NCBI RefSeq assembly: GCF_900104845.1
Contig: NZ_FNSR01000001.1
Span: 1,550,001 to 1,614,000 of the forward strand
Direction of reading: 5' to 3'
Length of the DNA: 64,000 bases
Source: Paraburkholderia caballeronis
GTDB taxonomy: Bacteria; Pseudomonadota; Gammaproteobacteria; Burkholderiales; Burkholderiaceae
Below, one piece after another: positions 38,312 through 55,342 of this stretch (its first letter is position 1; each line of letters begins with the position of its first letter). Under the pieces are notes generated by a model. The model saw only the letters and a program-made list of their open reading frames with translations. It did no database searches and was not told where the DNA came from. The position numbers and the translations under genes are program-made.

Positions 38312-38742
38312 TTCGACCGTATGCCGGGGCGGCTGCGCGACGGGTTCGTCGCGTTGCGCCGCCCCGGCGTCCAACGGCGCTTTGCTGCGGCGCGCTCGGG
38401 CAATTCCTCGGGCAATTCACATGCCCGGGCGTGCCGGTTTTGTCCTCCTTCCTCGCGTCCTCCCGGACGTTCCACAGGCCCGCCGCCTGACTCCTGCCGA
38501 TACGCTTCAGCACGCGCTTAATGCTGTTTCGCCGTAGCGCGGACGGCAGCGAAGTCGCGCCATCCGCCGGCGAAACGCCAAAACGCTCGGACTCCTGCGC
38601 GTACCGGGCAGCTACAAAGCACCCGCGCGGGACTGCGACTATGCTTCACGGGCAGGCTCCGCAGCCTATCGTTCGGTATTCCAGGGATTTACCGCGACTT
38701 CAGCTTTCTCCTGATGCTGTTACCTACGTTCAGAGGTGGACC
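38312..38742. other. 431-base spacer with a hairpin
   Basis: There is no gene. It contains the hairpin at 38323-38368 and otherwise nothing recognisable. Confidence 0.5.
38323..38368 (+). terminator. GC-rich hairpin after the peroxidase gene
   Basis: GCCGGGGCGGC and GCCGCCCCGGC form a perfect 11-base stem around a smaller inner stem (GCGACG/CGTCGC), starting 12 bases after the stop codon. There is no T-run, so efficient intrinsic termination is uncertain. Confidence 0.45.
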
Positions 38743-40309: not shown

Positions 40310-41500
40310 TTAGAACTTGTGGCGCATGCCGACGCGCAGCACCAGTTGGTGGTTGTTGTCGGACGGCGTCACGCCGTTGATCGCCGCGACCGCCGCCGCG
40401 CCGGTCGAGTTCGTGCCCGACGCCTTCTGGTAGATCCCGACGAAATACAGGTCGGTCCGCTTCGACAGGAAGTAGTCGGTGCCGAGCGCGGCCTGGTGAT
40501 ACGTCGATCCTTCGCGGCCCTGCACCGAGCTGCCGCGCGTGTAGTCGTACGCGGCGCCGACGAGCCAGGCGGTCGTCAACTGATACTTGAAGTTCGCCTC
40601 GACGTTGTTGAACATCGCGTTGCCGCTGTTGCCGGCCGGGTTCGGGCCGGAGCCGCCGCCGTCCAGGTTGTCGAAGCGCGTGTACGAGTAGGTGCCGCCA
40701 AAGGTCGCCGCGCCGTACGTGTACGCGCCGCCCGCCGCATACACCTCCTGGGTGCGGGCGTTCGCGAAGCCCGAGAACACCGGCGACGCGATGTTGTTCA
40801 GCGTCGCGAGCGGCGCGGAGCCGGTCGTGTTCGCGAGCGCGCTCGTGCCGTAGAACGACGTGTTCGGGTTGCGGATGTTCAGGTAGCCGACGCCGAGGCC
40901 GAGCGGGCCGTTGTAGTACGAGCCGCCGAGCGACCAGATCTGGTTCTGGCTGAAATGCCCGGCGACGCCGCCGGGGCTGTACACGCCGCCGAACGTGAAG
41001 CCGCCGTAGTTGTTGCTCGTGTACTTGATCGCGTTGTTCACGCGGTTCGAGTTGTTGATGTTGTCGAGGTCGCCCGGGTGCGCGGTGTAGAAGCCGCCCC
41101 ACTGGTCGCCGATTTCGAACAGGCCGACGTAGTCGACGACCGAGTCGTACTGGCGGCCGAGCGTGACCATCCCGTACGGCGTGCTGAGACCGACGAACGC
41201 CTGGCGGCCGAACATCAGGCCGCCCTGGCCGAGCTTGCCGCTGCTGAGGTCCATCCCGTTTTCGAGCACGAAGATCGCCTTCATGCCGCCGCCGAGATCC
41301 TCGGTGCCTTTCAGACCCCACCGGCTCGCCTGGATCTCGCCGCTCACGAGGCTGTACTGGCGCGCGCCGTGCGAGTTCGTGTTGAAGGTCAGGCCTTCGT
41401 CCACCACGCCGTACAGCGTCACGTTGCTCTGCGCGTGCGCGACGCCCGCGCAGGCGCCGAGCGCACCCACCATGCCCGCTAACCGAAGTGTTTTTTTCAT
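40310..41500 (-). CDS. Gram-negative porin (OmpC-like, betaproteobacterial)
   Basis: This 396-residue outer-membrane porin has a signal peptide ending GVAHA (about residue 23). The mature protein starts QSNVTLYGVVDEGLTF, the classical beginning of Burkholderia/Neisseria porins, and ends LRVGMRHKF with a terminal Phe needed for outer-membrane insertion. WGLKGTEDLGGGMKAIF and FGRQAFVGLSTPYGMVTLGRQYD are signature strands. It forms a 16-stranded trimeric channel. It is divergent from the GntR gene that heads the LIV/hydantoinase operon and could supply that operon's substrate across the outer membrane (inference). Confidence 0.93.
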   Translation of the reverse strand: MKKTLRLAGMVGALGACAGVAHAQSNVTLYGVVDEGLTFNTNSHGARQYSLVSGEIQASRWGLKGTEDLGGGMKAIFVLENGMDLSSGKLGQGGLMFGRQAFVGLSTPYGMVTLGRQYDSVVDYVGLFEIGDQWGGFYTAHPGDLDNINNSNRVNNAIKYTSNNYGGFTFGGVYSPGGVAGHFSQNQIWSLGGSYYNGPLGLGVGYLNIRNPNTSFYGTSALANTTGSAPLATLNNIASPVFSGFANARTQEVYAAGGAYTYGAATFGGTYSYTRFDNLDGGGSGPNPAGNSGNAMFNNVEANFKYQLTTAWLVGAAYDYTRGSSVQGREGSTYHQAALGTDYFLSKRTDLYFVGIYQKASGTNSTGAAAVAAINGVTPSDNNHQLVLRVGMRHKF

Positions 41501-41944: not shown

Positions 41945-41973
41945 AGGACAATGTTTGTTTCTCACTTTGTCCT
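41945..41973. promoter_or_regulatory. AGGACAA-N15-TTGTCCT inverted repeat upstream of the GntR gene
   Basis: Seven-base perfect arms (41945-41951 and 41967-41973) end just before a promoter-like -35 element. It is a candidate autoregulatory operator of the GntR/UTRA regulator. Confidence 0.4.
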
Positions 41974-42010: not shown

Positions 42011-42805
42011 ATGGGAACGACACTACCTCTGCCGAAATACCACCAGATCTACCTGGTGCTTCGCGAGCAATTGCAGGAAGGCCAGTTCGACGAGGAGGGC
42101 GTTCCCGGCGAGCATCAGCTGGCCGAACAGTTCTCGGTCGCGCGCATCACGATCAGGAAGGCGATGGAAATGCTGGTCGCCGACGGGCTCGTGATCCGGC
42201 GTCCCGGCATCGGCACCTGGCCGCTGCGCGCGGAGCCGGGCCGGAAGCGCAAGCTCGCGCCGCCGCCGGAAAAAGCGCATCTGACCGGGCTGCTCGAAAA
42301 CATCGTCAACGCGGGGCTGCGCACGAACGTCGAGGTGATCGACAGCAACGTCGTGCTCGCGTCGCCGGTGATCGCCGAGGCGCTGAACGTCGCGGCCGGC
42401 GACCCGGTGTACAAGACGATCCGCGTGCGCAGCACGCGCTCCGGCCCGGTGTCGTACATCACCACGCACGTGCCGCAGGCGCTCGTCGACCTGAAGCCGC
42501 GCGACCTGAAGCGCAAGCCGCTCCTGATGCTGCTCGAAGAAGCGGGCGTCGAACTGGGGGCGGCCACGCAGACCATTTCGGCGCGCCTCGCCGATGCGGT
42601 GGTCGCGCGTCATCTCGACGTGTCGGTCGGCTCGGCGCTGCTCGACGTGACGCGCGTGGTGCGCGACACGAACGAGCGGCCGGTGCAACTGCTGCAGGGG
42701 CTGTATCGGCCCGACCGCTACCAGTATCAACTGGAGCTTTCGTGCGTCGGCGACATCGACGCGCGGGTCTGGGTCAGCGAAGCGTTATCGACCACATTCA
42801 ACTGA
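42011..42805 (+). CDS. GntR-family regulator, HutC/UTRA type
   Basis: This 264-residue repressor-type regulator has an N-terminal winged helix (about residues 8-75; YHQIYLVLREQLQEG and EHQLAEQFSVARITIRKAMEMLVADGLVIRRPGIGTW) and a C-terminal UTRA ligand-binding domain (about 95-255). HutC-type regulators bind small catabolic substrates or intermediates. It is the first gene of a tightly packed operon and only 20 bases upstream of the binding-protein gene, so it most likely represses the whole cluster until the substrate appears. ATG 42011 is chosen because the family motif begins nine residues later; the frame also opens at 41951. Confidence 0.88.
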   Translation: MGTTLPLPKYHQIYLVLREQLQEGQFDEEGVPGEHQLAEQFSVARITIRKAMEMLVADGLVIRRPGIGTWPLRAEPGRKRKLAPPPEKAHLTGLLENIVNAGLRTNVEVIDSNVVLASPVIAEALNVAAGDPVYKTIRVRSTRSGPVSYITTHVPQALVDLKPRDLKRKPLLMLLEEAGVELGAATQTISARLADAVVARHLDVSVGSALLDVTRVVRDTNERPVQLLQGLYRPDRYQYQLELSCVGDIDARVWVSEALSTTFN

Positions 42806-42825
42806 AATATCCGCCTGGAGATCTC

Positions 42826-44031
42826 ATGAGTTCGCGTCGTACCTTTCTGCGTCAGTCGACGGCCGCGGCCGCGATGCTGGCCGCGCCCTGGGCCGCCCGC
42901 GCGGCCGCCGGCAACACCATCAAGATCGGCGTGCTGCATCCGGTCACCGGCGCGGTCGCCTATTCGGGGCAGCAGTGCCGTCTCGGCGCGCTGCTCGCGA
43001 TCGAGGACATCAACAAGGCCGGCGGCATCAAGTCGCTCGGCGGCGCGACGATCGAGGCCGTGCTCGGCGACGCGCAGTCGCGCCCCGAGGCCGGCGCGGC
43101 CGAAGTCGAGCGGATGAACGAGGCAGGCGTGTCGGCGATCGTCGGTGCATATGCCTCGGCCATCTGTCTCGCGACCACGCAGACCGCCGCGAAATACGGC
43201 CTGCCGCACGTCGTCGACGTCGGCGTCGCGGACCAGATCGTGCAGCGCGGCCTCACCAACACGTTCCGCTTCGGCCCCGGCTACGACATGTGCAGCGCGC
43301 GCGCGGTCGAATACCTGAACACGCTGAACAGCGCGGCCGGCAAGCCGGCGAAGACGGTGATGATCGTGCACGAGGAGTCGCTGTTCGGCACCGGCACCGC
43401 GAAGCTGCTCAGCACCGAACTGCCGAAGTACGGGTTCGAGATCAAGGAAGTGGTCAAGCACCCGAACCCGACGCGCGACTTCAACAACATCGTGCTGCGC
43501 ATGCGCGCGGTGAATCCGGACATCGTGATCCCGGCGAACTACTACGACGAATACGCGCTGCTGCTGCGCGCGATGAAGCAGCAGCGCGTGCGGCCGAAGG
43601 CGGTGTTCTCGGTGCTCGGCGGCGCGGCGTCGAGCTACAAGTTCCTGAAGGAGTATCCGGACGTCGCGGACGGCATCATCGACTGCAACCACTGGTTCAA
43701 CCCGAAGGACCCGCGCGTCGCGCCGCTGCGCCAGCGCGTCGAGGCGAAGGGCGCGTACTTCTCGTACGAGGTGTTCATGACGTACACCGCGACGACGCTG
43801 CTTGCCGACGCGCTGGAGCGCGCGAAGTCGGCGGACCGCGCGGCGCTCACCGCGGCGCTCGCGTCGAGCACGTTCAAGGACCACCTGATGCCGTACGGCC
43901 CCACGCATTTCGTGAACGGCCAGAACACCGGCGCGCAGCCGCTGCTCACGCAGGTGCAGGGCGGCGACATCCGGGTGATCCTGCCGCCGGACTTCCGCGA
44001 GGTCGCGCCGGTGTTTCCGCTGAAGGGCTAA
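42826..44031 (+). CDS. LIV-type ABC transporter binding protein with Tat-like signal
   Basis: This is a 401-residue periplasmic binding protein. The N-terminus MSSRRTFLRQSTAAAAMLAAPWAARA has a twin-arginine motif (RRTFLR), so export may be by the Tat system; cleavage after ARA near residue 26. The mature protein has the type I fold: TIKIGVLHPVTGAVAYSGQQ, then SAIVGAYASAICLATTQTAAKYGLPHV. This is the amide/urea/branched-chain amino acid binding class. CTGGAG before ATG 42826 is a good site. It heads the transporter set and defines substrate specificity. Confidence 0.9.
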   Translation: MSSRRTFLRQSTAAAAMLAAPWAARAAAGNTIKIGVLHPVTGAVAYSGQQCRLGALLAIEDINKAGGIKSLGGATIEAVLGDAQSRPEAGAAEVERMNEAGVSAIVGAYASAICLATTQTAAKYGLPHVVDVGVADQIVQRGLTNTFRFGPGYDMCSARAVEYLNTLNSAAGKPAKTVMIVHEESLFGTGTAKLLSTELPKYGFEIKEVVKHPNPTRDFNNIVLRMRAVNPDIVIPANYYDEYALLLRAMKQQRVRPKAVFSVLGGAASSYKFLKEYPDVADGIIDCNHWFNPKDPRVAPLRQRVEAKGAYFSYEVFMTYTATTLLADALERAKSADRAALTAALASSTFKDHLMPYGPTHFVNGQNTGAQPLLTQVQGGDIRVILPPDFREVAPVFPLKG

Positions 44032-44041
44032 GGTTCCGCGC

Positions 44042-44914
44042 ATGTTCGATCCCATCATCCTCGTGCCGGCGCTGCTGAACGGGCTCACGACGGGCGCCGT
44101 GTACGCGCTCGTCGCGCTCGGCCTCACGCTGATCTACGGCGTGCTGCACATCATCAACTTCGCGCACGGCGCGGCGCTGATGGTCGCGCTGTACGCGGTG
44201 TATCTGCTGAAGGACCGGCTCGGCATCGACCCGTATCTCGCGCTGCCGTTCGTGATGGCCGGGATGTTCGTGTTCGGCTACCTGTTGCAGCGCGTGGTCA
44301 TCAACCGCGCGAGCCACGGCTCCGACGAGAACATCCTGCTCGTCACGCTCGGCCTGTCGATCGTGCTGGAAAACCTCGCGCTCGTGCTGTTCCATTCGGA
44401 CACGCGCAACATCGACACGTCGTATGCGATGTCCACCGTCGAGATCGGCCCGGCGATGATCGCGCTGCCGAAGGTGATCGCGTTTTTCGGCGCGCTGGCG
44501 GTCGCGGCGGCGCTGTACGTCATCATCCGCGCGACCGATCTGGGCCGCGCGATCCGCGCGGTGTCGCGCGAGAAACACGGCGCGAAGCTGATGGGGATCG
44601 ACGTCGACAAGGTCTATGCGCTGTCGTTCGGCATCGGCATGGCGTGCGTCGGCGCGGCCGCCTGTTTCCTGCTGCCGAGCTACTACGTGAGCCCGCAGGT
44701 CGGCGGCGGTTTCGTGCTGATCGCGTTCACGATCGTCGTGCTCGGCGGGATGGGCAGCTTCGCGGGCGCGCTGCTCGGCGGGCTGCTGATCGGCGTGGTC
44801 GAGTCGCTGGGCGGGCTGTGGTTCGGCGATTCGATGGGGCAGATGGGCATCTTCGCGATCTTCATCATCGTGCTGCTGGTGCGCCCGCAGGGTCTGTTCG
44901 GCAAGAGGGCATAA
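44042..44914 (+). CDS. livH: LIV-type ABC transporter permease (LivH)
   Basis: This 290-residue inner-membrane permease has about eight hydrophobic helices. LTTGAVYALVALGLTLIYGVLHIINFAHGAALMVAL is the LivH hallmark near the N-terminus, and VVLGGMGSFAGALLGGLLIGVVESL is the coupling region near residue 240. It starts 10 bases after the binding-protein stop and ends three bases before the second permease gene. It pairs with the LivM-type protein to form the channel. Confidence 0.93.
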   Translation: MFDPIILVPALLNGLTTGAVYALVALGLTLIYGVLHIINFAHGAALMVALYAVYLLKDRLGIDPYLALPFVMAGMFVFGYLLQRVVINRASHGSDENILLVTLGLSIVLENLALVLFHSDTRNIDTSYAMSTVEIGPAMIALPKVIAFFGALAVAAALYVIIRATDLGRAIRAVSREKHGAKLMGIDVDKVYALSFGIGMACVGAAACFLLPSYYVSPQVGGGFVLIAFTIVVLGGMGSFAGALLGGLLIGVVESLGGLWFGDSMGQMGIFAIFIIVLLVRPQGLFGKRA

Positions 44915-44917
44915 CCG

Positions 44918-45910
44918 ATGCGCGACGTTCGTTCCATCCTGATCTTCGGCGTGCTGGTCGCCGGCGCCGCGACGGCGCTGCACTCCGGCGTGCTGCTCAA
45001 CTTCCTGATGATGGCGCTGTACGCGGTGCTGCTGTCGCAGGCCTGGAACATTCTCGGCGGCTACGGCGGCCAACTGTCGTTCGGCCACGCGCTGTTCTTC
45101 GGCGTCGGCGCGTACACCCAGGCGATCGCGCAACTGAGCTGGGGCTGGAACCCCTGGCTCGCGCTGCCGGTCGCGATCGCGTTCGGTCTCGTGGCCGGCG
45201 TGGTGGTCGGCCTGCTCGCGTTTCGCGGCGGGCTGCGCGGTTCGTATTTCGCGCTGGTCACGCTCGCGTTCGCGGAGGTCGCGCGGATCGTCGCCGTGTC
45301 GGTGCCGTTCACCGGCGGCGGCGTCGGCCTGATGGTGCCGCTGCACGCGAGTATCGCGAACCTCCAGTTCGGTTCGCGGCGCGGCTACATCTATCTGCTG
45401 CTCGTGGCGGTCTGCTGCGCGCTCGCGCTGACCGCATGGCTGCGCCACTCGCGCTTCGGCGCATATCTGCAGGCGGTGCGCGACAACGAGAATGCGGCGC
45501 GCGCGGTCGGCGTCGATCCGGTGCGCGTGAAGCTCGGTGCGATCGCCTGGTCGGCCGCGTTCATGAGCGTGGCCGGCGCGTGTTACGTGCAGATGTTCCA
45601 GTACATCGACGCGGGCATCGCGTTCGGCCCGTCGATCTCGGTGCAGGCGCTGGTCGGCGTGATCGTCGGCGGGGTCGGCACGCTGTGGGGGCCGGTGCTC
45701 GGCGCGGCGCTGCTGTATGCGCTCGGCGAGGTCACGCGCAACCTGTTCGGCGAACTGCCGGGCCTCAGCATGGTGATCTACGGCGCGGTGCTGGTCGTGA
45801 TCGTGATGTTCATGCCGCGCGGGCTGTCCGGCGCGGGCGTGTCGGCGCGGCGGCTGTGGTCGCGCCCGGCCGCGAACGCGGAACAGCGCAAGGAGCAGGC
45901 CCGTGTCTGA
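44918..45910 (+). CDS. livM: LIV-type ABC transporter permease (LivM)
   Basis: This 330-residue inner-membrane permease has about nine helices. QAWNILGGYGGQLSFGHALFFGVGAYTQAI and GGLRGSYFALVTLAFAEVARIV are LivM signatures; VRDNENAARAVGVDPVRVKLGAIAWSAAFM is the conserved cytoplasmic loop. Its stop overlaps the start of the ATPase gene by eight bases, so translation is coupled. Confidence 0.93.
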   Translation: MRDVRSILIFGVLVAGAATALHSGVLLNFLMMALYAVLLSQAWNILGGYGGQLSFGHALFFGVGAYTQAIAQLSWGWNPWLALPVAIAFGLVAGVVVGLLAFRGGLRGSYFALVTLAFAEVARIVAVSVPFTGGGVGLMVPLHASIANLQFGSRRGYIYLLLVAVCCALALTAWLRHSRFGAYLQAVRDNENAARAVGVDPVRVKLGAIAWSAAFMSVAGACYVQMFQYIDAGIAFGPSISVQALVGVIVGGVGTLWGPVLGAALLYALGEVTRNLFGELPGLSMVIYGAVLVVIVMFMPRGLSGAGVSARRLWSRPAANAEQRKEQARV

Positions 45911-46658
45911 CGTACTGTTGCAGGCCCGCGGCCTGTCCATCACCTTCGGCGGTTTGCGCGCCGTGCAGGACGTGTCGCTCGACGTGCCGCCGAACCGCCT
46001 CACCGCGCTCGTCGGCCCGAACGGCGCGGGCAAGACCACGCTGTTCGCGCTGCTGTCCGGCTTCCTGAAGCCGGGCGCGGGCAGCGTGCAGTTCATGGGA
46101 CGCGACATCACCGGCTTGCCGCCGCATCAGTCGGCGCGGCTCGGCCTCACGCGCACGTTCCAGATCGTGCAGCCGTTCGGCGCGCAGACGGTGCGCGAGA
46201 ACATCGCGGTCGGCGCGCATCTGCATCTGCGCGACCGGCGCGCGGCGCTTGCCGCCGCCGACGAGGTGGCCGAGCGCGTGAACCTGAAGGACAACCTCGA
46301 CAAGCCGGCCGCCGACCTGACCGTCGCGGGCCGCAAGCGCCTCGAACTCGCGCGCGCGCTCGCGACCCGGCCGCGCCTGCTGCTGCTCGACGAAGTGCTC
46401 GCGGGGCTGAACCCGAGCGAGATCGACGAGATGATCCCGGTGATCCGCGGACTCGCGGACAGCGGCGTCACGGTGCTGATGATCGAGCACGTGATGCGCG
46501 CGGTGATGAGCCTCGCGGAGCACGTATGGGTGCTCGCGCAGGGCCGGCTGATCGCGGGCGGCACGCCGCGCGAGGTCACCTCGAACCCGGCGGTGATCGA
46601 GGCGTATCTCGGCCACGGCACCGCCGAACGGCTCGCGCGCGAAGGAGAACAACCGTGA
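45903..46658 (+). CDS. livG: LIV-type ABC transporter ATPase (LivG)
   Basis: This 251-residue ATPase has a Walker A motif GPNGAGKTT (about residues 38-46), an ABC signature in the LTVAGRKRLELARALA stretch (a variant of LSGGxQ), and Walker B LLLLDEVLAGL followed by a His switch in IEH. It is the LivG type, with the extended C-terminal VIEAYLGHG. It starts at GTG 45903 behind AAGGAG and overlaps livM by eight bases. It drives import through the LivH/LivM pair. Confidence 0.92.
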   Translation: MSDVLLQARGLSITFGGLRAVQDVSLDVPPNRLTALVGPNGAGKTTLFALLSGFLKPGAGSVQFMGRDITGLPPHQSARLGLTRTFQIVQPFGAQTVRENIAVGAHLHLRDRRAALAAADEVAERVNLKDNLDKPAADLTVAGRKRLELARALATRPRLLLLDEVLAGLNPSEIDEMIPVIRGLADSGVTVLMIEHVMRAVMSLAEHVWVLAQGRLIAGGTPREVTSNPAVIEAYLGHGTAERLAREGEQP

Positions 46659-47365
46659 GCGCACTGCTCGAAATCGAAGGGCTGCACTCGGGTTACGGCC
46701 GCACCGAAGTGCTGCGCGGCGTGGACATGCGCGTGGACGACGGCGAGATCGTCGTGCTGCTCGGCAGCAACGGCGTCGGCAAGACCACGCTGAACAACAC
46801 GATCTGCGGGATCAACCGCGCGTGGCAGGGCAGCGTGCGGTTCGACGGGCAGGTGCTGACCGGCCGCCACTACCGCGACGTCGTGTCGGCCGGGCTGATC
46901 CAGGTGCCGGAAGGGCGGCGCATCTTCCCGAACCTGAGCGTGCGCGAGAACCTCGAACTCGGCGCGTTCCGGCGCGGCAAGCGCAATCGCGCGACGAACC
47001 TCGCGCGGGTGCTCGACATGTTCCCGCGCCTGCACGAACGCAGCGGCCAGGCGGCCGGCACGATGTCCGGCGGCGAGCAGCAGATGCTCGCGATCGGCCG
47101 CGGGCTGATGGCCGAGCCGCGCCTGCTGATCCTGGACGAGCCGTCGCTCGGCCTGTCGCCGCTGATGGTCGAGGAGATGTTCGCGCTGATCCAGCGGCTG
47201 CGCAGCGAAGGGCTCGCGATCCTGCTGGTCGAGCAGAACGTGCGCCAGTCGCTCGAAACGGGACAGCGCGGCTACGTGCTCGAAAACGGCGCGATCCGTC
47301 ATTCGGGCACCTGCGCGGAATTGATGGCGAGCGACGCGCTGCGTCGCGCCTATCTGGGGATGTAG
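46655..47365 (+). CDS. livF: LIV-type ABC transporter ATPase (LivF)
   Basis: This 236-residue ATPase has Walker A GSNGVGKTT, signature MSGGEQQMLAIGRGLM, and Walker B LLILDEPSLGLSP. The compact length and the ending LRRAYLGM are typical of LivF. The start is GTG 46655, whose TG lies in the TGA stop of livG (GTGA overlap), indicating translational coupling. GGAG at 46644-46647 is the ribosome site. It is followed after three bases by the aconitase-family large subunit gene, which ties transport and catabolism into one transcript. Confidence 0.92.
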   Translation: MSALLEIEGLHSGYGRTEVLRGVDMRVDDGEIVVLLGSNGVGKTTLNNTICGINRAWQGSVRFDGQVLTGRHYRDVVSAGLIQVPEGRRIFPNLSVRENLELGAFRRGKRNRATNLARVLDMFPRLHERSGQAAGTMSGGEQQMLAIGRGLMAEPRLLILDEPSLGLSPLMVEEMFALIQRLRSEGLAILLVEQNVRQSLETGQRGYVLENGAIRHSGTCAELMASDALRRAYLGM

Positions 47366-47368
47366 TCG

Positions 47369-48637
47369 ATGGCAGTAGCACAAACGCTTGCGCAAAAACT
47401 GATTGCGGCGGCCTGCGGAAAACCGGCCGTCGAGGTGGGGGAGATCGTCACCTGCAACGTCGATCTCGCGATGTTTCATGATTCGAGCGGCCCGCGCCGC
47501 CTGAAGCCGATGCTGGAGGCGCTCGGCGCGCCGCTGTGGGACAAGTCGAAGATCGTGCTCGTGATGGACCATTACGTGCCGGAAGCCGACGACGAATCGC
47601 GCCGCATCGTGCGGATCGCGCGCGACTGGGCGAGCGCGCAGCAGTTGCCGAACGTGTACGACAGCGTCGGCATCTGCCACGTCGTGCTGCCCGAGCGCGG
47701 GCATCTGCGGCCCGGCATGCTGTGCGTCGGCGGCGATTCGCATTCGCCGACCGGCGGCGCGTTCGGCGCGTACATGTTCGGCGTCGGCAGCACCGAGATG
47801 CTCGGCGTCGTCGTGTCCGGGCAGATCTGGGTGAAGGTGCCGCAGACGCTGCGGATGGTCTGGCATGGGCGGCTCGCGCGCGGCGTGACCGCGAAGGACA
47901 TGATGCTGCACATGATCGGCCGGTTCGGCATGAACGGCGGCCGCTACCAGGCGGTGGAATTCTGCGGCGACGCGGTGACCGCGCTGTCGATGCAGGAGCG
48001 CATGACGCTGTCGAACATGAGCGCGGAACTCGGCGCGCAGGCCGGCCTGATCGCGCCGGACGACACGACCGTCGCGTATCTGCGCGGCGTCGGCGTGAGC
48101 GCCGACATCGACGTGGGCCGCTGGCAGGGCGATCCCGGCGCACGGGCGGAAACGCACGAGTTCGACGCGGCGACGCTCGCGCCGCAAGTGGCCGCGCCGC
48201 ACAGCCCCGCGAACACGCGCGACGTCGCGCAGTTCGACGGCGTGCGGGTGCAGGTCGCGTACATCGGCGCCTGCACCGGCGCGAAGCTCGACGACCTGCG
48301 CGCGGCCGCGAGCGTGCTGCGCGGCCGGCGCGTCGCGGACGGCGTGCAGCTGGTGGTCGCGCCGGCGAGCCTGCGCGACGCGGAACAGGCCGAACGCGAA
48401 GGCGTGATGGCTGCGCTGCGCGACGCGGGTGCGCAGATGCTCGCGACCAGTTGCGGCGCGTGCGCCGGTTATGGCGGTTCGATTCCCGAGGGCAGCACGG
48501 TGATTTCCAGCACCGCACGCAATTTCAAAGGCCGGATGGGCGCGGCGTCCGCCGACGTGTATCTCGGCTCGCCGTACACGGTCGCCGCGTCCGCGTTGAC
48601 CGGGCGCATCGCCGACGCGCGCGAGGTGCTCGCATGA
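47369..48637 (+). CDS. aconitase/LeuC-family hydro-lyase large subunit
   Basis: This 422-residue protein belongs to the aconitase superfamily, in the isopropylmalate-isomerase-like (LeuC) branch. The three 4Fe-4S ligands are visible: Cys 302 in YIGACTGAK and Cys 362 and 365 in SCGACAG. MDHYVPEAD and GGDSHSPTGGAFGAYMFGVGSTEM are substrate and cluster-loop motifs. Enzymes of this type add or remove water across the C=C bond of unsaturated di- or tricarboxylates (isopropylmalate, citraconate, maleate, dimethylmaleate, homoaconitate). It overlaps the small-subunit gene by four bases. The catabolic setting argues against leucine synthesis; hydration of a substituted maleate is more likely (inference). 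Confidence 0.88.
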   Translation: MAVAQTLAQKLIAAACGKPAVEVGEIVTCNVDLAMFHDSSGPRRLKPMLEALGAPLWDKSKIVLVMDHYVPEADDESRRIVRIARDWASAQQLPNVYDSVGICHVVLPERGHLRPGMLCVGGDSHSPTGGAFGAYMFGVGSTEMLGVVVSGQIWVKVPQTLRMVWHGRLARGVTAKDMMLHMIGRFGMNGGRYQAVEFCGDAVTALSMQERMTLSNMSAELGAQAGLIAPDDTTVAYLRGVGVSADIDVGRWQGDPGARAETHEFDAATLAPQVAAPHSPANTRDVAQFDGVRVQVAYIGACTGAKLDDLRAAASVLRGRRVADGVQLVVAPASLRDAEQAEREGVMAALRDAGAQMLATSCGACAGYGGSIPEGSTVISSTARNFKGRMGAASADVYLGSPYTVAASALTGRIADAREVLA

Positions 48638-49167
48638 GCGGCCGTCTCGACATTCGACAGGCGGGCGACACGCACCGCGTCTGGCGCGTCGGCGCCGACA
48701 TCGACACCGACGCGCTCGCGCCCGGCGCGTACATGAAGTTCGGCATCGACGAGATCGCGCGGCATTGCCTCGAAGGCACGCGCGCGGACTTCGCAGCCGG
48801 CGTCGCGCGCGGCGACGTGCTGGTCGCCGGGCCGAACTTCGGCATCGGCTCGTCGCGCGAACAGGCCGCCGCCGCGCTCGTGCATCTCGGCGTGCGCGCG
48901 GTCGTCGCGCCGGCCTTCAGCGGGCTGTACTTCCGCAACGCGTTCAACGTCGGCCTGCTGCTGCTGACCTGCGCGGAAGCGGAAAGCATCGGCGAAGGCG
49001 AGCGCATCGCGATCGACGCGCGCGCCGGCCGCATCCGCCGCGCGGACGGCGTCGAACTCGCGTGCGAGCCGGTGCCGACGTTCCTGCTCGACATGGTCGA
49101 CGCAGGCGGCCTGCTCAATCTGCTCAGACAGCGTTACCCCAAACCGAACGGAGCCGTTTCATGCTAG
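48634..49167 (+). CDS. aconitase/LeuD-family hydro-lyase small subunit
   Basis: This 177-residue swivel-domain subunit carries GADIDTDALAPGAYMKF (the common DIDTDxIIP motif is altered) and GPNFGIGSSREQAAAAL, the substrate-binding signature of LeuD and aconitase domain 4. FSGLYFRNAFNVGLLLL is also family-typical. It works as a heterodimer with the product of 47369-48637. It starts at ATG 48634 (ATGA overlap) and its stop overlaps the next gene by seven bases (ATGCTAG). Confidence 0.9.
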   Translation: MSGRLDIRQAGDTHRVWRVGADIDTDALAPGAYMKFGIDEIARHCLEGTRADFAAGVARGDVLVAGPNFGIGSSREQAAAALVHLGVRAVVAPAFSGLYFRNAFNVGLLLLTCAEAESIGEGERIAIDARAGRIRRADGVELACEPVPTFLLDMVDAGGLLNLLRQRYPKPNGAVSC

Positions 49168-50888
49168 ATCCCGTCACGCTGGCCGTCCTGAAGGGACGGC
49201 TGGAACAGATCGCCGACGAAATGGACGCGACCCTGTACCGCAGCGCGTTCAATCCGATCATCGCGGAAGCCCACGATGCGTGCCACGGCATCTACGATGC
49301 GCAGACCGGCGCGACGCTCGTGCAGGGCAAGTCCGGGTTGCCGGTGTTCGTCGGCGCGATGGCGTTCGCGGTGCAGGCCGCGATGCGCGCGGCCGCCACG
49401 CGCGGCGGCATGGTCGACGGCGACGTGTGGCTGTTCAACGACCCGTACGAAGGCGGCACGCACGCGAACGACTTCAAGCTGGTGCGGCCGGTGTTTCGCG
49501 ACGGCAGGCTGTTCTGCTTTCTCGCATCGGCCGCGCACTGGCACGACGTCGGCGGCGCGGTGCCGGGCAACTACAACCCGGCCGCGACCGAATGCTGGCA
49601 GGAGGCGGTGCAGATTCCGCCGGTGCGGATCGTGCGGCGCGGCGAACTCGACGCCGACGTGCTCGCGATCCTGAAGGCGAACACGCGGCTGCCGGACAGC
49701 CTGTGGGGCGACCTGAACGGCCAGCTCGCGGCGCTCGAACTCGGCGTGCGCCGGCTCGACGACCTGCTCGATTCGTACGGCGACGCGACGGTGCTCGACG
49801 CGCTGTCGCTGCTGCGCGAGCGCGCGGTGAAGCTGATGCGCGCGCACGTCGCCGCGCTGCCGGACGGCGACTATCCGTTCTCGGACATCCTCGACAATGA
49901 CGGCGTGCGCGACGAGCCGCTGACCATCGCGCTGACGATGCGGGTGGCGGGCGACGCGCTGACGCTCGACTTCACCGGCACGTCGCCGGCGTGCGCGGGG
50001 CCGGTCAACATCTCGCGCGCGACCGCGATCGCCGCGTGTTACGTCGCGCTGAAGCACCTGTTCCCGGACGTCCCCGCGAACGCGGGCGTGCTCGATGCGG
50101 TGTCGTTCGTGCTGCCGGACGGCCTCGTGATCTCGGCGGACCGGCCGCGTCCGGTCGGCGGCTACACCGAGACGATCCTGCGGATGATCGACGTGATCTT
50201 CTGCGCGATGGCGCAGGCGGTGCCGGAGCGCGCGATGGCGCAGTCGTACGGCACGATCAACGCGCTGTCGATCGCCGGCCATCGCAGCAGCGGCGCGCGT
50301 CAGGGCCAGCGCTGGGTGATGTTCAGCTTCTTCGGTGGCGGCCACGGCGGCCACTCGGACGGCGACGGCCTGAGCCACGGCAACGCGCCGATCTCGACCG
50401 CGACGATCCCGCCGCTCGAAATCCTCGAAGCCGCGTATCCGGTGCGCTTCACGCAATGGGCGCTGCGCCCGGACTCGGGCGGCGACGGCGAACATCGCGG
50501 CGGCCTCGGCGCGATCTACGAGATCGAGTTGCTGGAGAACGAGGCCGAGGCGTTCATCTTCGGCGAGCGCGGCCGTTCCGCGCCGAAGGGGATCGCGGGC
50601 GGCAGCGAGTCGGTGCCGAACGTGTTCCGTTATCAGAACGGCGGCGAATGGCGCACGCCGCCGATGGCGTCGAAGATGCGCGGCATCCAGTTGAAACGCG
50701 GCGAACGCGTGCGGCTCGAAACGCCGGGCGGCGGCGGTTACGGCGCGCCGTCCGCGCGCGCCGCGGCCGCGCGCGAGCGCGATCTCGCGATGGGCTACGT
50801 GACGGACGATAAAACGAAGGACAAGGACAACGCCGCGAACGACCAGGCGCGGGCGGCGCACGCAGAACAAAAGGAGCAGCACGCATGA
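49161..50888 (+). CDS. hyuB: hydantoinase B/oxoprolinase family protein
   Basis: This 575-residue subunit belongs to the ATP-dependent hydantoinase/5-oxoprolinase/acetone-carboxylase group. MLDPVTLAVLKGRLEQIADEMDATLYRSAFNPIIAE is the typical start, with AHDACHGIYDA and LFNDPYEGGTHANDF for the catalytic region. It ends with a Lys/Asp/Ala-rich tail after GGGGYGAP. With HyuA it opens a cyclic amide, imide or lactam at the cost of ATP; N-methylhydantoin, 5-oxoproline and caprolactam enzymes are known relatives, and carboxylases of ketones are others. Start ATG 49161 overlaps the preceding stop; its own stop overlaps hyuA (ATGA). Confidence 0.9.
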   Translation: MLDPVTLAVLKGRLEQIADEMDATLYRSAFNPIIAEAHDACHGIYDAQTGATLVQGKSGLPVFVGAMAFAVQAAMRAAATRGGMVDGDVWLFNDPYEGGTHANDFKLVRPVFRDGRLFCFLASAAHWHDVGGAVPGNYNPAATECWQEAVQIPPVRIVRRGELDADVLAILKANTRLPDSLWGDLNGQLAALELGVRRLDDLLDSYGDATVLDALSLLRERAVKLMRAHVAALPDGDYPFSDILDNDGVRDEPLTIALTMRVAGDALTLDFTGTSPACAGPVNISRATAIAACYVALKHLFPDVPANAGVLDAVSFVLPDGLVISADRPRPVGGYTETILRMIDVIFCAMAQAVPERAMAQSYGTINALSIAGHRSSGARQGQRWVMFSFFGGGHGGHSDGDGLSHGNAPISTATIPPLEILEAAYPVRFTQWALRPDSGGDGEHRGGLGAIYEIELLENEAEAFIFGERGRSAPKGIAGGSESVPNVFRYQNGGEWRTPPMASKMRGIQLKRGERVRLETPGGGGYGAPSARAAAARERDLAMGYVTDDKTKDKDNAANDQARAAHAEQKEQHA

Positions 50889-52966
50889 AGGCCGTACAAG
50901 GTTCGCTCGTCGTCGGCGTCGATGTCGGCGGCACGTTCACCGATCTGTTCGTGCTCGACGAGGCGTCCGGCAGCGCGCGCGTCGTCAAGGTGCCGTCCAC
51001 GCGCGGCGAGGAGGCGAAAGGGTTCATGAACGGGATCGCGCGCATCGGCGACCCGGACGCTCGACAGCAAACGAGCGGCGGCGCGGGCGCGATCGCGACG
51101 ATCGTGCACGGCACGACGGTCGGCACGAACGCGCTGCTCGAACGCAAGATGGCGCGCACCGGCATCATCACGACCGAGGGTTTCCGCGACGTGCTCGAAA
51201 TGCGCCGCCGCGACCGGCCGCGCACGTGGGGGCTGCGCGGCAGCTTCGAGCCGGTCGTGCCGCGCGATCTGCGTGTCGAGGTCAGCGAGCGGGTGCTCGC
51301 GGACGGCACGCTGCACACGCCGGTCGATCTCGCGCAGGTCGAGGCGGCCGCGCGCGCGCTGCTCGAACGCGGCTGCGACGCGGTGTGCGTGTTCTTCGTG
51401 AACGCGTATGCGAATCCGTCGAACGAGGCGCAGGCGGTCGCCGCGGTGCGCGCGCTGTGGCCGAACGCGAACGTCACCGCCGCGACCGAGGTGCTGCCGG
51501 AGATCCGCGAGTTCGAACGCTGCTCGACCGCGACGCTGAACGCATCGTTGCAGCCGGTCGTCGGCAGTTATCTGACGCGGCTCGAAAACGATCTGAAGGC
51601 GCACGGCTTCGGCGGCGAACTGCTGGTCGTGCAAAGCAACGGCGGGATCATGTCGAGGCAGACCGCGTGCGACGTGCCGGTGCGGACCGCGCTGTCCGGC
51701 CCGGCCGCCGGCGTGATCGCGTGCGCCGCAATCGGGCGCGCGGCGGGTTTCCCGAACCTCGTGACCGGCGACATGGGCGGCACGTCGTTCGACGTGTCGC
51801 TGGTCGCGGACGGCGCGGCGTCGCTGTCCGCGCAGACGTCGCTCGACTTCGGGATGGTGGTGCGCGCGCCGATGATCCAGATCGAGACGATCGGCGCGGG
51901 CGGCGGCTCGATCGCGTCGGTGGACGCGGGCGGCCTGCTGCAGGTCGGCCCGGAATCGGCAGGCAGCGTGCCGGGGCCGGCCTGTTACGGACGCGGCAAC
52001 CTGCGGCCGACCGTGACCGACGCGAACGTGCTGCTCGGCCGCATCAGCGCGGACCGGCCGCTCGGCGGCGGCCTGCTCGCGCGGCTCGACATCGACAAGT
52101 CGCGCGAGGCGATCGACACGCACGTCGCGCAACCGCTCGGCCTCGACGTGCACGCGGCGGCAGAGGCGATCCTGACCGTCGCGAACGCAAAGATGGCGGG
52201 CGCGATCCGGCTCGTGTCGATCGAGCGCGGCCACGATCCGCGCGAGTTCGCGTACATGCCGTTCGGCGGCGGCGGCGCGCTGCACGTGTGCGCGATGATG
52301 CGCGAGGTCGGCAGCACGACCGGCATCGTGCCGCGCTTTCCGGGCGTCACGTCGGCGATCGGCTGCGTGATCGCGGACATGCGGCACGACGCGGTGCAGA
52401 CGATCAACCGCGCGCTCGACGACCTCGACCTCGACGAACTGCGCGAGCGCGTCGCGACGATGGCCGATGCGTGCCAGCAGCGGCTCGACTCGGCGGGCGT
52501 CGGGTTCGACGCGGTGCGCGAGCACGTCGAGCTGGACATGCTGTACGTCGGCCAGAGCCATACGGTCAGCGTCGAGGTGCAGCGCGACGGACTCGACCGC
52601 GACGCGATCCGCGCCGCCTTCGAGCACGCCTATCGCGCCGCGTTCGGCCGCACGCTCGACGGCATCGCGGTGCGCATCCTGAACCTGCGTTATGCGCGCA
52701 TCGGCGTGCGGCCGAAGTTCGACCTGTCGGTGCTCGCGCCGACGGCGACGACGATGCCCGAACCGCTCGGCACGCAGCCGGTGTTCCATGCGGGCCGCTG
52801 GTGGGACGCGACGCGCTGGGCGCGTCTCGAACTGCCGGTCGATGCGACGGTGGACGGCCCGGCGATCCTCGAACAGGGCGATACGACGATCTGGCTGGAG
52901 CCGGGTTTCAGCGGCCGCGTCGATGCGCTCGGCAATCTGCTGATCGCGGCGCGGGAGGGCGCATGA
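50885..52966 (+). CDS. hyuA: hydantoinase A/oxoprolinase family protein
   Basis: This 693-residue ATP-binding subunit partners the product of 49161-50888. The actin-like N-terminal domain begins VVGVDVGGTFTDLFVLDE (phosphate loop). TIVHGTTVGTNALLERK and GDMGGTSFDVSLV are further nucleotide-binding motifs, and MPFGGGGALHVCAM lies near residue 458. This is the OplA/HyuA layout with a C-terminal beta-rich domain. It phosphorylates or otherwise activates the ring amide. Its stop overlaps the next start (ATGA at 52963). Confidence 0.92.
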   Translation: MKAVQGSLVVGVDVGGTFTDLFVLDEASGSARVVKVPSTRGEEAKGFMNGIARIGDPDARQQTSGGAGAIATIVHGTTVGTNALLERKMARTGIITTEGFRDVLEMRRRDRPRTWGLRGSFEPVVPRDLRVEVSERVLADGTLHTPVDLAQVEAAARALLERGCDAVCVFFVNAYANPSNEAQAVAAVRALWPNANVTAATEVLPEIREFERCSTATLNASLQPVVGSYLTRLENDLKAHGFGGELLVVQSNGGIMSRQTACDVPVRTALSGPAAGVIACAAIGRAAGFPNLVTGDMGGTSFDVSLVADGAASLSAQTSLDFGMVVRAPMIQIETIGAGGGSIASVDAGGLLQVGPESAGSVPGPACYGRGNLRPTVTDANVLLGRISADRPLGGGLLARLDIDKSREAIDTHVAQPLGLDVHAAAEAILTVANAKMAGAIRLVSIERGHDPREFAYMPFGGGGALHVCAMMREVGSTTGIVPRFPGVTSAIGCVIADMRHDAVQTINRALDDLDLDELRERVATMADACQQRLDSAGVGFDAVREHVELDMLYVGQSHTVSVEVQRDGLDRDAIRAAFEHAYRAAFGRTLDGIAVRILNLRYARIGVRPKFDLSVLAPTATTMPEPLGTQPVFHAGRWWDATRWARLELPVDATVDGPAILEQGDTTIWLEPGFSGRVDALGNLLIAAREGA

Positions 52967-53595
52967 GCGCGGCGACGCCGACCCCGGCGGCCCCGCTCGA
53001 CGCGCGGCGCACCGCGCTCGTGATCGTCGATCTGCAGCACGACTTCATCGGCGACGGCGGCGCGTACGCGCGCGGCGGCGCGGCGTCCGACGCGGCGCGC
53101 CGGTTGCCCGCGCGCGTCGCGCCGGTTGCGCGCGCGTTGCGCGAGCGCGGCGGCTACGTGGTCGCGAGCCAGTTCACGCTATGGCCCGACGCGGAGGGTG
53201 AACCGATGATCTCGCCGCATCTGAAGCAGTTGCGGCCGTTCCTCGCGCGCGGCGATTTCGAAGCGGGTTCGGCGGGCCATGCGGTCGTCGCGGAACTGGA
53301 TGGGCTCGTGAACGTGTCGGTGCTGAAGGTCGCGTACTCGGCGTTCTTCAACACGCAGCTCGACTGGCTGCTGCGGCGCGTCGGCATCGATACGGTCGCG
53401 ATCTGCGGGATCGTGACGAACGGCGGCGTCGCGAGCACCGCGCGCGACGCGCACATGCGCGACTACCGCGTGCTGGTGCTCGGCGACGGCTGCGCGGCAT
53501 CCACCGGCGCGGCGCACGACACCGCGCTCGCGGACCTGCGCACGGTCGGCGAAGTGACGACGTGCGACGCGTTCGTCGCGCGGCTGTCGGCGTGA
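52963..53595 (+). CDS. isochorismatase-fold hydrolase lacking the catalytic Cys
   Basis: This 210-residue protein has the cysteine-hydrolase (isochorismatase) fold. The expected catalytic Asp 23 (IVDLQHDF) and Lys 122 (VLKVAYSAF) are present, but the nucleophile position in the usual TNxCV motif is Gly 155 (TNGGVASTARDA). True isochorismatases also lack this Cys, whereas amidohydrolases such as maleamate amidase and nicotinamidase need it. The context (after hydantoinase A/B, before a lyase) suggests amide hydrolysis, so the missing Cys is a puzzle; a non-covalent mechanism or another reaction is possible. Translation is coupled to hyuA. Confidence 0.85.
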   Translation: MSAATPTPAAPLDARRTALVIVDLQHDFIGDGGAYARGGAASDAARRLPARVAPVARALRERGGYVVASQFTLWPDAEGEPMISPHLKQLRPFLARGDFEAGSAGHAVVAELDGLVNVSVLKVAYSAFFNTQLDWLLRRVGIDTVAICGIVTNGGVASTARDAHMRDYRVLVLGDGCAASTGAAHDTALADLRTVGEVTTCDAFVARLSA

Positions 53596-53629
53596 CCCTC
53601 AACGGACGGATAGCGGCAGGACCTGACGA

Positions 53630-54484
53630 ATGAACAAACTGAAGACGAAACTCGCGGACGGCACGGTGCTCGCGCCGGGCGTATTCGATGCGTTGAGCGC
53701 GGTGATCGCGGAACAGGCGGGTTTCGACGCGCTGTATCTGTCCGGCGCGTCGATCGCGTACACGAAGCTCGGCCGCTCGGACGTGGGTCTCACGACGTAC
53801 ACCGAAGTCGAGGACACGCTCGCGCGGATCACCGAACGCGTCGCGCTGCCGGTGATCGTCGATGCCGATACCGGCTTCGGCAATGCGCTGAACGTGAAGC
53901 GCACGGTGCGCGGCTTCGAGCGCGCGGGCGCGGCGATGATCCAGCTGGAGGACCAGACGTTTCCGAAGCGGTGCGGCCATCTCGACGGCAAGTCGGTGAT
54001 CCCGGTCGCGGAGATGTGCGGCAAGCTGCGCGCGGCCGTCGATGCGCGCGCGAATGCCGGCACGCTGATCCTCGCGCGCACCGACGCGGTCGCGGTCGAA
54101 GGGCTCGACGCGGCGCTGGAGCGCGCGGAACGGTATCTCGAAGCGGGCGTCGATGCGCTGTTCATCGAGGCGCTGCGCTCGGTCGAGCAGATGGAGGCCG
54201 CGTGTGCGCGTTTCGCCTCGCGCGTGCCGCTGCTCGCGAACATGGTCGAAGGCGGCAAGACGCCGGTGCAGCGCGCGGCGCTGCTCGCGCAGATCGGCTT
54301 CCGGATCGTGATCTTCCCGGGCGCGGCCGCGCGCGCGGTCTCGCATACGCTGAAGGGTTTTTACGGGAGCCTGCACGAGCACGGCACGACCGCGCCGTGG
54401 AGCGACCGGATGCTCGACTTCGACGGACTGAACCAGGTGATTGGCACACCGGATCTTATCGCCGAGTCGAAGCTGTACGAGTAG
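53630..54484 (+). CDS. isocitrate lyase/PEP mutase family C-C lyase
   Basis: This 284-residue barrel enzyme carries the isocitrate-lyase superfamily motif KRCGH (residues 113-117), whose Cys is the catalytic acid in methylisocitrate and dimethylmalate lyases. ADTGFGNALNV, MIQLEDQTF and ILARTDA are magnesium- and substrate-binding elements. Family members cleave a 2-hydroxy diacid at the C2-C3 bond to give an oxoacid plus a carboxylate (methylisocitrate, 2,3-dimethylmalate) or hydrolyse oxaloacetate. It starts 35 bases after the preceding stop and closes the operon. It is the natural last step after a LeuCD-type hydratase (inference). Confidence 0.9.
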   Translation: MNKLKTKLADGTVLAPGVFDALSAVIAEQAGFDALYLSGASIAYTKLGRSDVGLTTYTEVEDTLARITERVALPVIVDADTGFGNALNVKRTVRGFERAGAAMIQLEDQTFPKRCGHLDGKSVIPVAEMCGKLRAAVDARANAGTLILARTDAVAVEGLDAALERAERYLEAGVDALFIEALRSVEQMEAACARFASRVPLLANMVEGGKTPVQRAALLAQIGFRIVIFPGAAARAVSHTLKGFYGSLHEHGTTAPWSDRMLDFDGLNQVIGTPDLIAESKLYE

Positions 54485-54890: not shown

Positions 54891-55342
54891 CCCACGCGGG
54901 TCGTGCGCGAGCCCTCCCGGCTCAACGCCCTCCCACTTTGCCCGGCGCATCGCATGCGCCGGGCATGCTCATTCGATCATCCGCGCATCAACGGCCTGCC
55001 TGCGGGCATCGGCGCATCGTTGCAGAATGGCGAGGCGGTGTTTGCCGTCCGGCCACGCCGGCTTCGCGTCGCGCGGATTCGTAGTACGGTGACTGCGGCT
55101 GCGGAAATAAAAGCCAGCCGGGCGTGAAACGTGCTCCATTTGTGCGGCGGCCGTCTGCGGAAATTGAAAGGATGTGCCATGCGACTGCGGATCGTGCGCG
55201 AAAGATTCAGCGCCGCCTGAAGGTCTTGCGCAGGTCTTTCGCGGGTCTTTCGCGGGTCTTTCAAGCGGGGTTCCGCGTCGCGCGGCATGCCGGCCGCCTT
55301 GTCCTGTCTGTCAACCGAAACCTGAAACCAGAGGTCATAACC
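54891..55342. other. 452-base spacer with the leader of the PQQ dehydrogenase gene
   Basis: There is no gene. It contains four 11-base direct repeats (55222-55265) about 80 bases before the start codon. Confidence 0.6.
55222..55265 (+). repeat. four tandem 11-base units (GGTCTTTCGCG) upstream of gcd
   Basis: The units are GGTCTTGCGCA, GGTCTTTCGCG, GGTCTTTCGCG and GGTCTTTCAAG, in direct register. The period of 11 is close to one DNA turn, so a protein could bind all four on one face. It may also be a simple slippage product. Confidence 0.8.

Follow-up and report, generated by a model that had tools for sequence, protein, structure and literature searches.

The catabolism of cyclic imides is known from Blastobacter sp. 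A17p-4, in which the imide ring is opened and the half-amide is then converted to a dicarboxylate. In the nicotinate fermentation of Eubacterium barkeri, a LeuCD-type 2,3-dimethylmaleate hydratase (DmdAB) is followed by an isocitrate-lyase-family 2,3-dimethylmalate lyase, yielding pyruvate and propionate. Here we describe a twelve-gene operon at positions 42011-54484 of a 64,000-nucleotide stretch of the Paraburkholderia caballeronis genome (the window), which we read, with moderate confidence, as serving the breakdown of a cyclic imide or amide whose ring has five members or a similar size, with predicted hydration and cleavage steps. The proposed order of events agrees with the Blastobacter route as far as the dicarboxylate, but the locus differs in having an ATP-dependent ring opener (HyuBA), a second protein devoid of the nucleophilic cysteine, and a dedicated hydratase and lyase. 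The hydratase-lyase sequence would correspond to that of E. barkeri, where the acid arises from a pyridine ring by carbon-skeleton rearrangement, whereas ring-opening hydrolases are linked here. The titles and opening abstract lines of the open-licence PMC papers brought up by our searches on the pathway, its chemistry and the lyase mention no such operon, and it is apparently an undescribed variant of cyclic-imide catabolism.

In the pathway that we propose, the Liv transporter would take up the cyclic compound and HyuBA would open the ring in an ATP-dependent reaction. The nitrogen would leave as ammonia, either with the help of the Cys-less isochorismatase-fold protein (Iso) or spontaneously. 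LeuCD would then hydrate the alkyl-substituted maleate to the corresponding malate, which the PrpB-like lyase would split, giving pyruvate together with a short carboxylic acid. Relatives of the operon would begin with an oxidation, in which a fumarate-reductase-like flavoprotein brings succinate-level intermediates to the level of maleate. We infer every one of these reactions, their order and the substrate class from the gene set.

All twelve genes lie on the forward strand in a nearly gap-free array, as follows.

42011..42805, +, GntR/UTRA transcriptional regulator (Pfam GntR 52.8 bits, UTRA 109.5 bits)
42826..44031, +, LivK-type periplasmic substrate-binding protein (Peripla_BP_6 173.9 bits)
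44042..44914, +, LivH permease (open reading frame (ORF) named by eye; same position in relatives)
44918..45910, +, LivM permease (named by eye; same position in relatives)
45903..46658, +, LivG ATPase (named by eye; same position in relatives)
46655..47365, +, LivF ATPase (named by eye; same position in relatives)
47369..48637, +, LeuC-like large subunit of an aconitase-family hydro-lyase (PRK00402 523 bits, cut-off 385)
48634..49167, +, LeuD/DmdB-like small subunit with a GSSRE motif (TIGR02087 155 bits, cut-off 108.95)
49161..50888, +, HyuB, metal-binding subunit of a predicted ATP-dependent lactam/imide/hydantoin hydrolase (Hydantoinase_B 561.5 bits)
50885..52966, +, HyuA, its ATP-binding subunit (Hydantoinase_A 282.1 bits)
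52963..53595, +, Iso, isochorismatase-fold protein with Gly155 in place of the nucleophilic Cys (PF00857 127.8 bits)
53630..54484, +, PEP_mutase/ICL-family C-C lyase, PrpB-like (prpB model TIGR02317 293.7 bits, cut-off 354.4)

The gaps do not exceed 34 bp (GntR-LivK 20 bp, LivK-LivH 10 bp, LivH-LivM 3 bp, LivF-LeuC 3 bp, Iso-lyase 34 bp), and the remaining junctions overlap by 4-8 bp (LivM-LivG 8, LivG-LivF 4, LeuC-LeuD 4, LeuD-HyuB 7, HyuB-HyuA 4, HyuA-Iso 4 bp). The first-pass annotation, made from the letters alone, had listed these genes at the right place and, for the most part, with overlapping starts and stops. Pfam or NCBIfam profiles support eight of the twelve; LivH, LivM, LivG and LivF were named by eye and by their match to the genes of relatives. 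The regulator gene may instead begin at an alternative in-frame start at 41951. A promoter and terminator scan was uninformative, with one promoter-like site against 0.9 expected and five terminator-like sites against 6.7 expected.

Conservation of the gene set

The twelve-gene set is a real unit, beyond what chance would produce, since it recurs in relatives and survives reordering in another class. Our named collection consists of the best 80 of 582 LeuC relatives, all at least 71% identical, the closest being from Paraburkholderia; 54 of these loci have ample flanks (at least 6 kb before and at least 8.5 kb after LeuC), and counts on 80 or 54 loci refer to this collection. Gene maps were drawn with a simple ORF picker, not a gene caller, and missed some genes, mainly LeuD; presence was therefore counted by blastp hits at any position of the extracted locus (E 1e-12, at least 45% query coverage). 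Conserved co-occurrence of the enzyme genes, which the first-pass annotation had suggested looking for, was observed in the flanked loci: LeuD and the lyase each accompany LeuC in 54/54, HyuBA with Iso in 36/54, a flavoprotein in 42/54 and a PuuE-type protein in 6/54, while 12/54 have neither HyuBA nor PuuE. In all 80 loci, incomplete ones included, LeuD is present in 78, the lyase in 71, the flavoprotein in 62, HyuBA in 41 and a PuuE-type protein in 15. Iso accompanies HyuBA in all 41 HyuBA loci, and HyuBA and PuuE-type proteins occur together in none of the 80. No match above 50% identity to HyuB, HyuA, Iso, the flavoprotein, LeuD or the lyase lies on the opposite strand, and a GntR gene is found near the core in most loci.

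Taxon samples, whose loci partly overlap the named collection, gave LeuC relatives in 40/300 genomes of the order (E 1e-60; 15 places at 56% identity or more, window included), 13/58 of the genus (E 1e-60; nine reach 75%, counting the window), 51/249 of the family (E 1e-100) and 11/398 of the phylum (E 1e-110). We recounted 57 of these loci with LeuC of at least 52% identity, leaving out six with LeuC at or below 44% (L053-L056, L132, L133). The lyase accompanies 33/33 LeuC of at least 66% identity; HyuBA is present in 19 of the 57 loci, 18 of them with Iso. The reverse test agrees: HyuA orthologues (E 1e-250) occur in 6/58 congeners, and all six are among the nine that carry this LeuC clade (Fisher p 2.1e-6, a value that ignores kinship). 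Two genomes of one genus from another class keep GntR, Liv, LeuC, LeuD, lyase, HyuB, HyuA, Iso and flavoprotein in a changed order, with the lyase placed before HyuB (LivM was missed by the gene picker). Pairwise protein distances correlate as well (Spearman 0.38 to 0.86, obtained without a null; kinship alone would explain part).

The usual operon contains a gene that the window lacks. This is an FAD_binding_2-type flavoprotein (for example L110:2619-4064, reverse strand). In operons of the Hyu type its gene generally separates Iso from the lyase, where the window has just 34 bp (53596-53629). Fumarate reductase flavocytochrome c and urocanate reductase are the closest PDB proteins to the one representative compared, and electron-transfer flavoprotein genes adjoin the core in L104 and L179. 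The simplest reading is that the flavoprotein would oxidise substituted succinates to maleates, and succinimide-level substrates may also enter the pathway. No homologue was found in the window's genome (7.1 Mb, three contigs) at E 1e-5. In the same search the query's source (G560) and G351 gave full-strength matches, and 10 of 10 genomes other than the window's had at least a weak one (just weak in G341, G319, G350, G300 and G382). The window's lineage appears to have lost the flavoprotein.

Two side observations concern the core in other genomes. In L025, L028 and L053-L056, a distant LeuCD (about 42% identity) has a nearby PrpB-like lyase at 34-40% identity; the LeuCD-lyase pair may, as this suggests, be more widespread than the operon. 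A contig labelled Singulisphaera (L182) carries a typical Comamonadaceae-like locus and is possibly mis-binned.

Predicted ring opening and the exchangeable front end

The closest described ring openers are caprolactamase CapAB and the ATP-dependent hydantoinases, which have in common with the window's HyuBA the two-subunit architecture and the ATP and metal motifs, as far as these are set out in PMC8453981. With the residues taken from that source, the ATP motifs of HyuA (DVGGT 13, DMGGT 296, GSVPGP 360) and the metal-site motifs of HyuB (AHD 37, GGTHAND 98, AHWH 125, a D-H-D-H site) are intact. HyuA scores 518.9 bits against the NCBIfam model of CapA, compared with 291.3 and 170.3 bits against acetophenone carboxylase subunits; HyuB scores 282.1 bits against caprolactamase and 111.5 bits against the carboxylase. 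The PDB neighbours of HyuA follow the same order (6yra at 420 bits, N-methylhydantoinase at 392 bits, then carboxylases at 285 bits or less). HyuBA is therefore likelier to be a lactam, imide or hydantoin hydrolase than a carboxylase, and the ketone carboxylase that the first-pass annotation had named as a refuting outcome is disfavoured. HyuBA differs from CapAB in that both subunits fall far below the caprolactamase equivalog cut-offs of 1000 bits and in that a motif search found no vicinal CysCys of CapB in HyuB. Caprolactamase was dependent on bicarbonate (PMC8453981). The acetophenone carboxylase cut-offs (1250-1500 bits) are likewise missed by both subunits.

The front end attached to the LeuCD-(flavoprotein)-lyase core is exchangeable. 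In variant (a) it consists of HyuBA and Iso, as in the window. Variant (b) has PuuE-type proteins with a Cys-type isochorismatase-fold protein; these genes are divergent from the core in L163 and L179, which also carry Asp/Glu-racemase-family and PrpD-family proteins, and the arrangement is found in L103, L104 and L113 and, a few kb downstream of the core, in L045. Variant (c) has a distant PuuE-like protein (29-34% identity) in thirteen named-collection loci of Comamonadaceae type. Its neighbours there are PrpD-like, Liv, short-chain dehydrogenase and AtuA genes, joined in some loci by DUF4387. These thirteen, and two proteins that closely resemble those scoring 132-140 bits to the PuuE model, make up the fifteen PuuE-type loci. 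At L172:6627-9148 and in comparable loci of Comamonadaceae, the interval between the Liv transporter and GntR-LeuCD holds genes for a short-chain dehydrogenase, for DUF4387 and for an AtuA-family protein.

In variant (d), seen in L243, an allantoinase/dihydropyrimidinase-type amidohydrolase lies between LeuD and the flavoprotein. A similar enzyme is found in L190, with racemase-family, PrpD and isochorismatase-fold genes adjoining LeuCD-lyase; the two relatives of the L243 enzyme in the order sample (L246, L247) do not lie beside this core. Variant (e) is the core without a ring opener, with TctC or MFS transporters. Ten of the twelve flanked loci without HyuBA or PuuE have a TctC-family gene, and two of the twelve, L190 and L210, carry hydrolases of other kinds close by. 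The PuuE- and AllB-type proteins that were tested all score well under the equivalog cut-offs. Imidases occur within both families, although our literature search gave no paper for this.

This swapping of unrelated cyclic amidohydrolases in one place supports, more strongly than any other argument, a ring-opened dicarboxylate as the probable substrate of the core, and variant (e) fits direct uptake of that acid. A TctC gene beside a core without ring opener is what an acid as the core's own substrate would lead one to expect, though such genes are widespread in these bacteria. The first-pass annotation had reasoned that ring opening feeds a substituted dicarboxylate which is then hydrated and cleaved; the replacement of HyuBA by unrelated hydrolases backs this logic, while the same proposal missed the flavoprotein of the usual operon and, as discussed below, its half-amidase step is not supported.

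The core could also be a general alkylsuccinate or citraconate route (flavoprotein, LeuCD and lyase) that acquired its ring openers on separate occasions, each for a different nitrogen compound, an explanation that we regard as doubtful. In its favour are the twelve flanked loci with the core but neither HyuBA nor PuuE, ten of them with a TctC-family gene, and the presence of isopropylmalate/citramalate isomerase among the PDB relatives of LeuC. Against it, HyuBA-Iso is present in two thirds of the flanked loci and is kept in another class. This explanation overlaps with the cyclic-imide reading, the difference being which substrate is primary.

The nature of the ring openers also bears on the possibility of a substituted hydantoin, or a cyclic ureide of another kind, as the substrate, which we consider unlikely. 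HyuBA (or a PuuE-/AllB-type enzyme) would then give an N-carbamoyl acid, a second hydrolase would remove the carbamoyl group, and LeuCD and the lyase would use an amino-acid-derived dicarboxylate. The nearest models of the exchanged ring openers are indeed allantoinase PuuE and allantoinase AllB/dihydropyrimidinase, the HyuBA family is stated to include hydantoinases (PMC8453981), and genes of the Asp/Glu/hydantoin racemase family occur in some loci. However, no ammonia-lyase, which would turn an amino acid into an unsaturated dicarboxylate, is present among the identified neighbours (many neighbours are not identified), and a Cys-less Iso suits a carbamoyl group no better than an amide.

The predicted hydratase, the lyase and Iso

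The LeuC-like subunit passes the cut-offs of PRK00402 and of the homoaconitase family model TIGR01343 (412.6 bits, cut-off 385.7) and lies just under that of TIGR02086 (404.3 of 410.15 bits). Its candidate [4Fe-4S] cysteines C302, C362 and C365 are invariant in ten aligned sequences, window included. The LeuD-like subunit passes the LeuD/DmdB model TIGR02087, was aligned to solved small subunits and has the GSSRE motif, which is named in PMC7308503. In contrast, all leucine isopropylmalate dehydratase cut-offs are missed, both by the large subunit (TIGR00170 235.6 of 560.25; TIGR02083 353.1 of 610.65) and by the small one (TIGR00171 47.8 of 116.25; TIGR02084 117.7 of 245.85). The genome has five other aconitase-family genes, two of which score above 560 bits to the family model and are better LeuC candidates. 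We also considered the LeuD loop APGAYMKFG, with Lys for the Arg of homoaconitase YLRT (PDB 2pkp), as a sign of an extra substrate carboxylate. This idea was dropped; Lys is also present in that loop column in the solved bacterial LeuD 3h5e, and L236 has His and L243 Gln (by eye).

The lyase is 39% identical to E. coli PrpB and 42% to petal death protein. It misses the PrpB equivalog cut-offs (TIGR02317 as listed above; PRK11320 248 of 353), and of the genome's four other PEP-mutase/ICL genes one is 76% identical to E. coli PrpB, with 28/30 compared residues equal. The cut-offs missed and the better housekeeping candidates elsewhere in the genome point to the operon's LeuCD and lyase being specialised paralogues. 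By these scores the LeuCD pair is not the leucine enzyme (activity on isopropylmalate alone was one outcome that the first-pass annotation had named as refuting its proposal), nor is the lyase the housekeeping PrpB. It is very improbable that these are leucine biosynthesis or methylcitrate-cycle genes beside an unrelated hydantoinase: the family names LeuC/D and PrpB would favour this, but the model scores, the better homologues and the conserved linkage all speak against it.

The catalytic residues are common to the lyase, petal death protein and 2-methylisocitrate lyase PrpB. In the window and 71 named-collection rows, the lyase keeps S45, G46, D58, D85, D87, E115, KRCGH (noted already in the first-pass annotation), R158, E188 and N210 (E. 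coli PrpB numbering), whose functional roles we assume to be those of PrpB; rows own_L216 (misaligned), L215 and L219 were left out of the alignment. The EGGKTP stretch is as in petal death protein. The lyase differs from PrpB by H113Q, T212V, F214G, L234I and L237G, which gives it a signature of its own (Q113, V212, G214, I234, G237). V212 and G214 are present in the window and in 70/71 named-collection rows, the remaining row being gapped; petal death protein has I212 and G214, PrpB T212 and F214.

F186 and P236 are as in PrpB, where we take them to line the pocket for the methyl group of the pyruvate half; the favoured candidate substrate is therefore a 2-methyl-3-alkylmalate that would yield pyruvate. 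Hematinic acid, which would give pyruvate and glutarate, is a weaker candidate: the residue presumed to bind a distal carboxylate (Thr212 in PrpB) is Val212 in the lyase, which gives no indication of such a group.

The step between ring opening and hydration is less straightforward. The maleamate amidohydrolases NicF and Ami (PDB 3uao, 4l07) have the isochorismatase fold and its Asp and Lys in common with Iso, but Iso has Gly where their catalytic Cys stands (Cys149 of Ami, mutated in 4l08 according to the entry title). The sequence of Iso at this site is GIVTNGGVAST, against GGSTSGCVRAT in the Cys-type proteins that accompany PuuE, and its Gly155 aligns with the Cys of five Cys-type (Iso2) rows; the alignment was made to these rows, not directly to Ami, with the genome's other PF00857 genes left out. 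Gly occupies this position in the window, its 41 named-collection orthologues, L236, L237 and all of the best 120 of 3001 homologues (the first being the window's own). Many of these homologues are called 'cysteine hydrolase' or 'nicotinamidase-related amidase' in databases, despite Gly at the catalytic Cys site. The fold domain is present, and the Asp (Asp23; V/I-DLQ; VDLQ in the window) and Lys (Lys122; V-x-K-VAYS; VLK in the window), which are catalytic in this fold, are conserved. The maleamate-type half-amidase suggested by the first-pass annotation is thus not upheld, since the change of Cys to Gly leaves a maleamate-type amidase mechanism without support.

Ammonia may leave spontaneously, or Iso may assist, or it may act like an isochorismatase. 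Isochorismatases likewise carry Gly at the Cys position. Disubstituted maleamic acids cleave via their own carboxylate. We tentatively suggest, as a rather unlikely but specific extension, a coenzyme A-independent route for alkyl-maleimides or succinimides (chlorophyll, heme and bilin fragments), in which, after ATP-dependent imide opening, the Cys-less Iso would use the cis-carboxylate of a substituted maleamate as nucleophile, releasing ammonia and giving an anhydride, followed by LeuCD hydration and cleavage to pyruvate and a short acid.

The same features bear on a pyrrolinone or other lactam (e.g., a bilin fragment) that would be opened by HyuBA; the enamine product would lose ammonia, and Iso would act on an enol or enamine in the manner of an isochorismatase. 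Iso has the Asp, the Lys and the Gly of isochorismatases, and the top score of HyuA is to a lactamase model; overall we judge this origin of the substrate improbable.

Weight of the evidence and significance

Several observations weigh against the cyclic-imide reading. The lyase accompanies just 6/24 LeuC of 52-65% identity in the taxon samples, some of these loci being truncated by the contig. In one genus (g4) there are eleven loci (L049, L116, L118-L123, L125-L127; LeuC 61-65% identity) in which neither the lyase nor the flavoprotein nor HyuBA accompanies LeuCD, and g4 supplies 11/18 of the taxon-sample loci without lyase, some of the others being cut by contig ends. In L048, Iso, lyase and flavoprotein are all missing beside LeuCD-HyuBA, whereas L050-L052 combine LeuCD with divergent PuuE-type and Cys-type isochorismatase-fold genes but no lyase. 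LeuC distances correlate less with those of the flavoprotein (r 0.39) and the lyase (0.53) than with those of HyuA (0.76) and Iso (0.85). Iso, the sole candidate in the operon for the second C-N cleavage, is without a cysteine nucleophile, and in L243 the interval from LeuD to the flavoprotein contains no second hydrolase. The distant PuuE-like protein of L172, the single one tested, reaches 71 bits to the PuuE model and has no Pfam match at 1e-5. The ring-opener families also act on ureides, so that a hydantoin substrate may apply, and the suggested likeness of LeuCD to the dimethylmaleate hydratase DmdAB is drawn by analogy.

Full linkage is a property of the closer LeuC clade. Distant relatives without it leave that clade unaffected, and our confidence in a cyclic-imide operon is therefore unchanged. 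The expectation in the first-pass annotation that the neighbours travel together thus holds for the closer clade. It missed the frequent lack of any ring opener beside LeuCD-lyase and the frequent lack of the lyase beside more distant LeuCD.

Other genes surround the operon in the window. A porin-like gene (40310-41500, reverse strand) is divergent from it and encodes a protein 29% identical to the porin adjoining the operon in L110. Upstream of this porin is an amidohydrolase-family protein (38521-40227), and downstream of the operon a probable pyrroloquinoline quinone-dependent membrane dehydrogenase (55124-57745), both named by eye from their translations.

Maleimides derived from tetrapyrroles as the natural substrate are a guess, first made in the first-pass annotation. 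They are reported environmental compounds. Hematinic acid has been reported in leaves (PMC7318184); the same source, which did not itself detect maleimides, cites older work that had found them in leaves and in the sediments of lakes.

If the cyclic-imide reading is true, genes that now bear leucine, hydantoin and propionate family names would become one testable unit, as members of a conserved pathway, so far without a name, that is shared by Paraburkholderia, Pandoraea, Achromobacter, Limnohabitans, Variovorax and other bacteria. The operon is kept by many bacteria of soil and fresh water, and the pathway would be a route by which substituted cyclic imides, possibly including tetrapyrrole end fragments, re-enter central metabolism. 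Should the cis-carboxylate proposal also be true, the route would stand at the end of tetrapyrrole mineralisation, and Iso would add a new mechanism to those of the isochorismatase fold. Database naming is corrected in one respect, as Iso is called a 'cysteine hydrolase' without having a catalytic cysteine. Finally, the exchange of unrelated ring openers on one core provides a useful case of non-orthologous displacement for function prediction.

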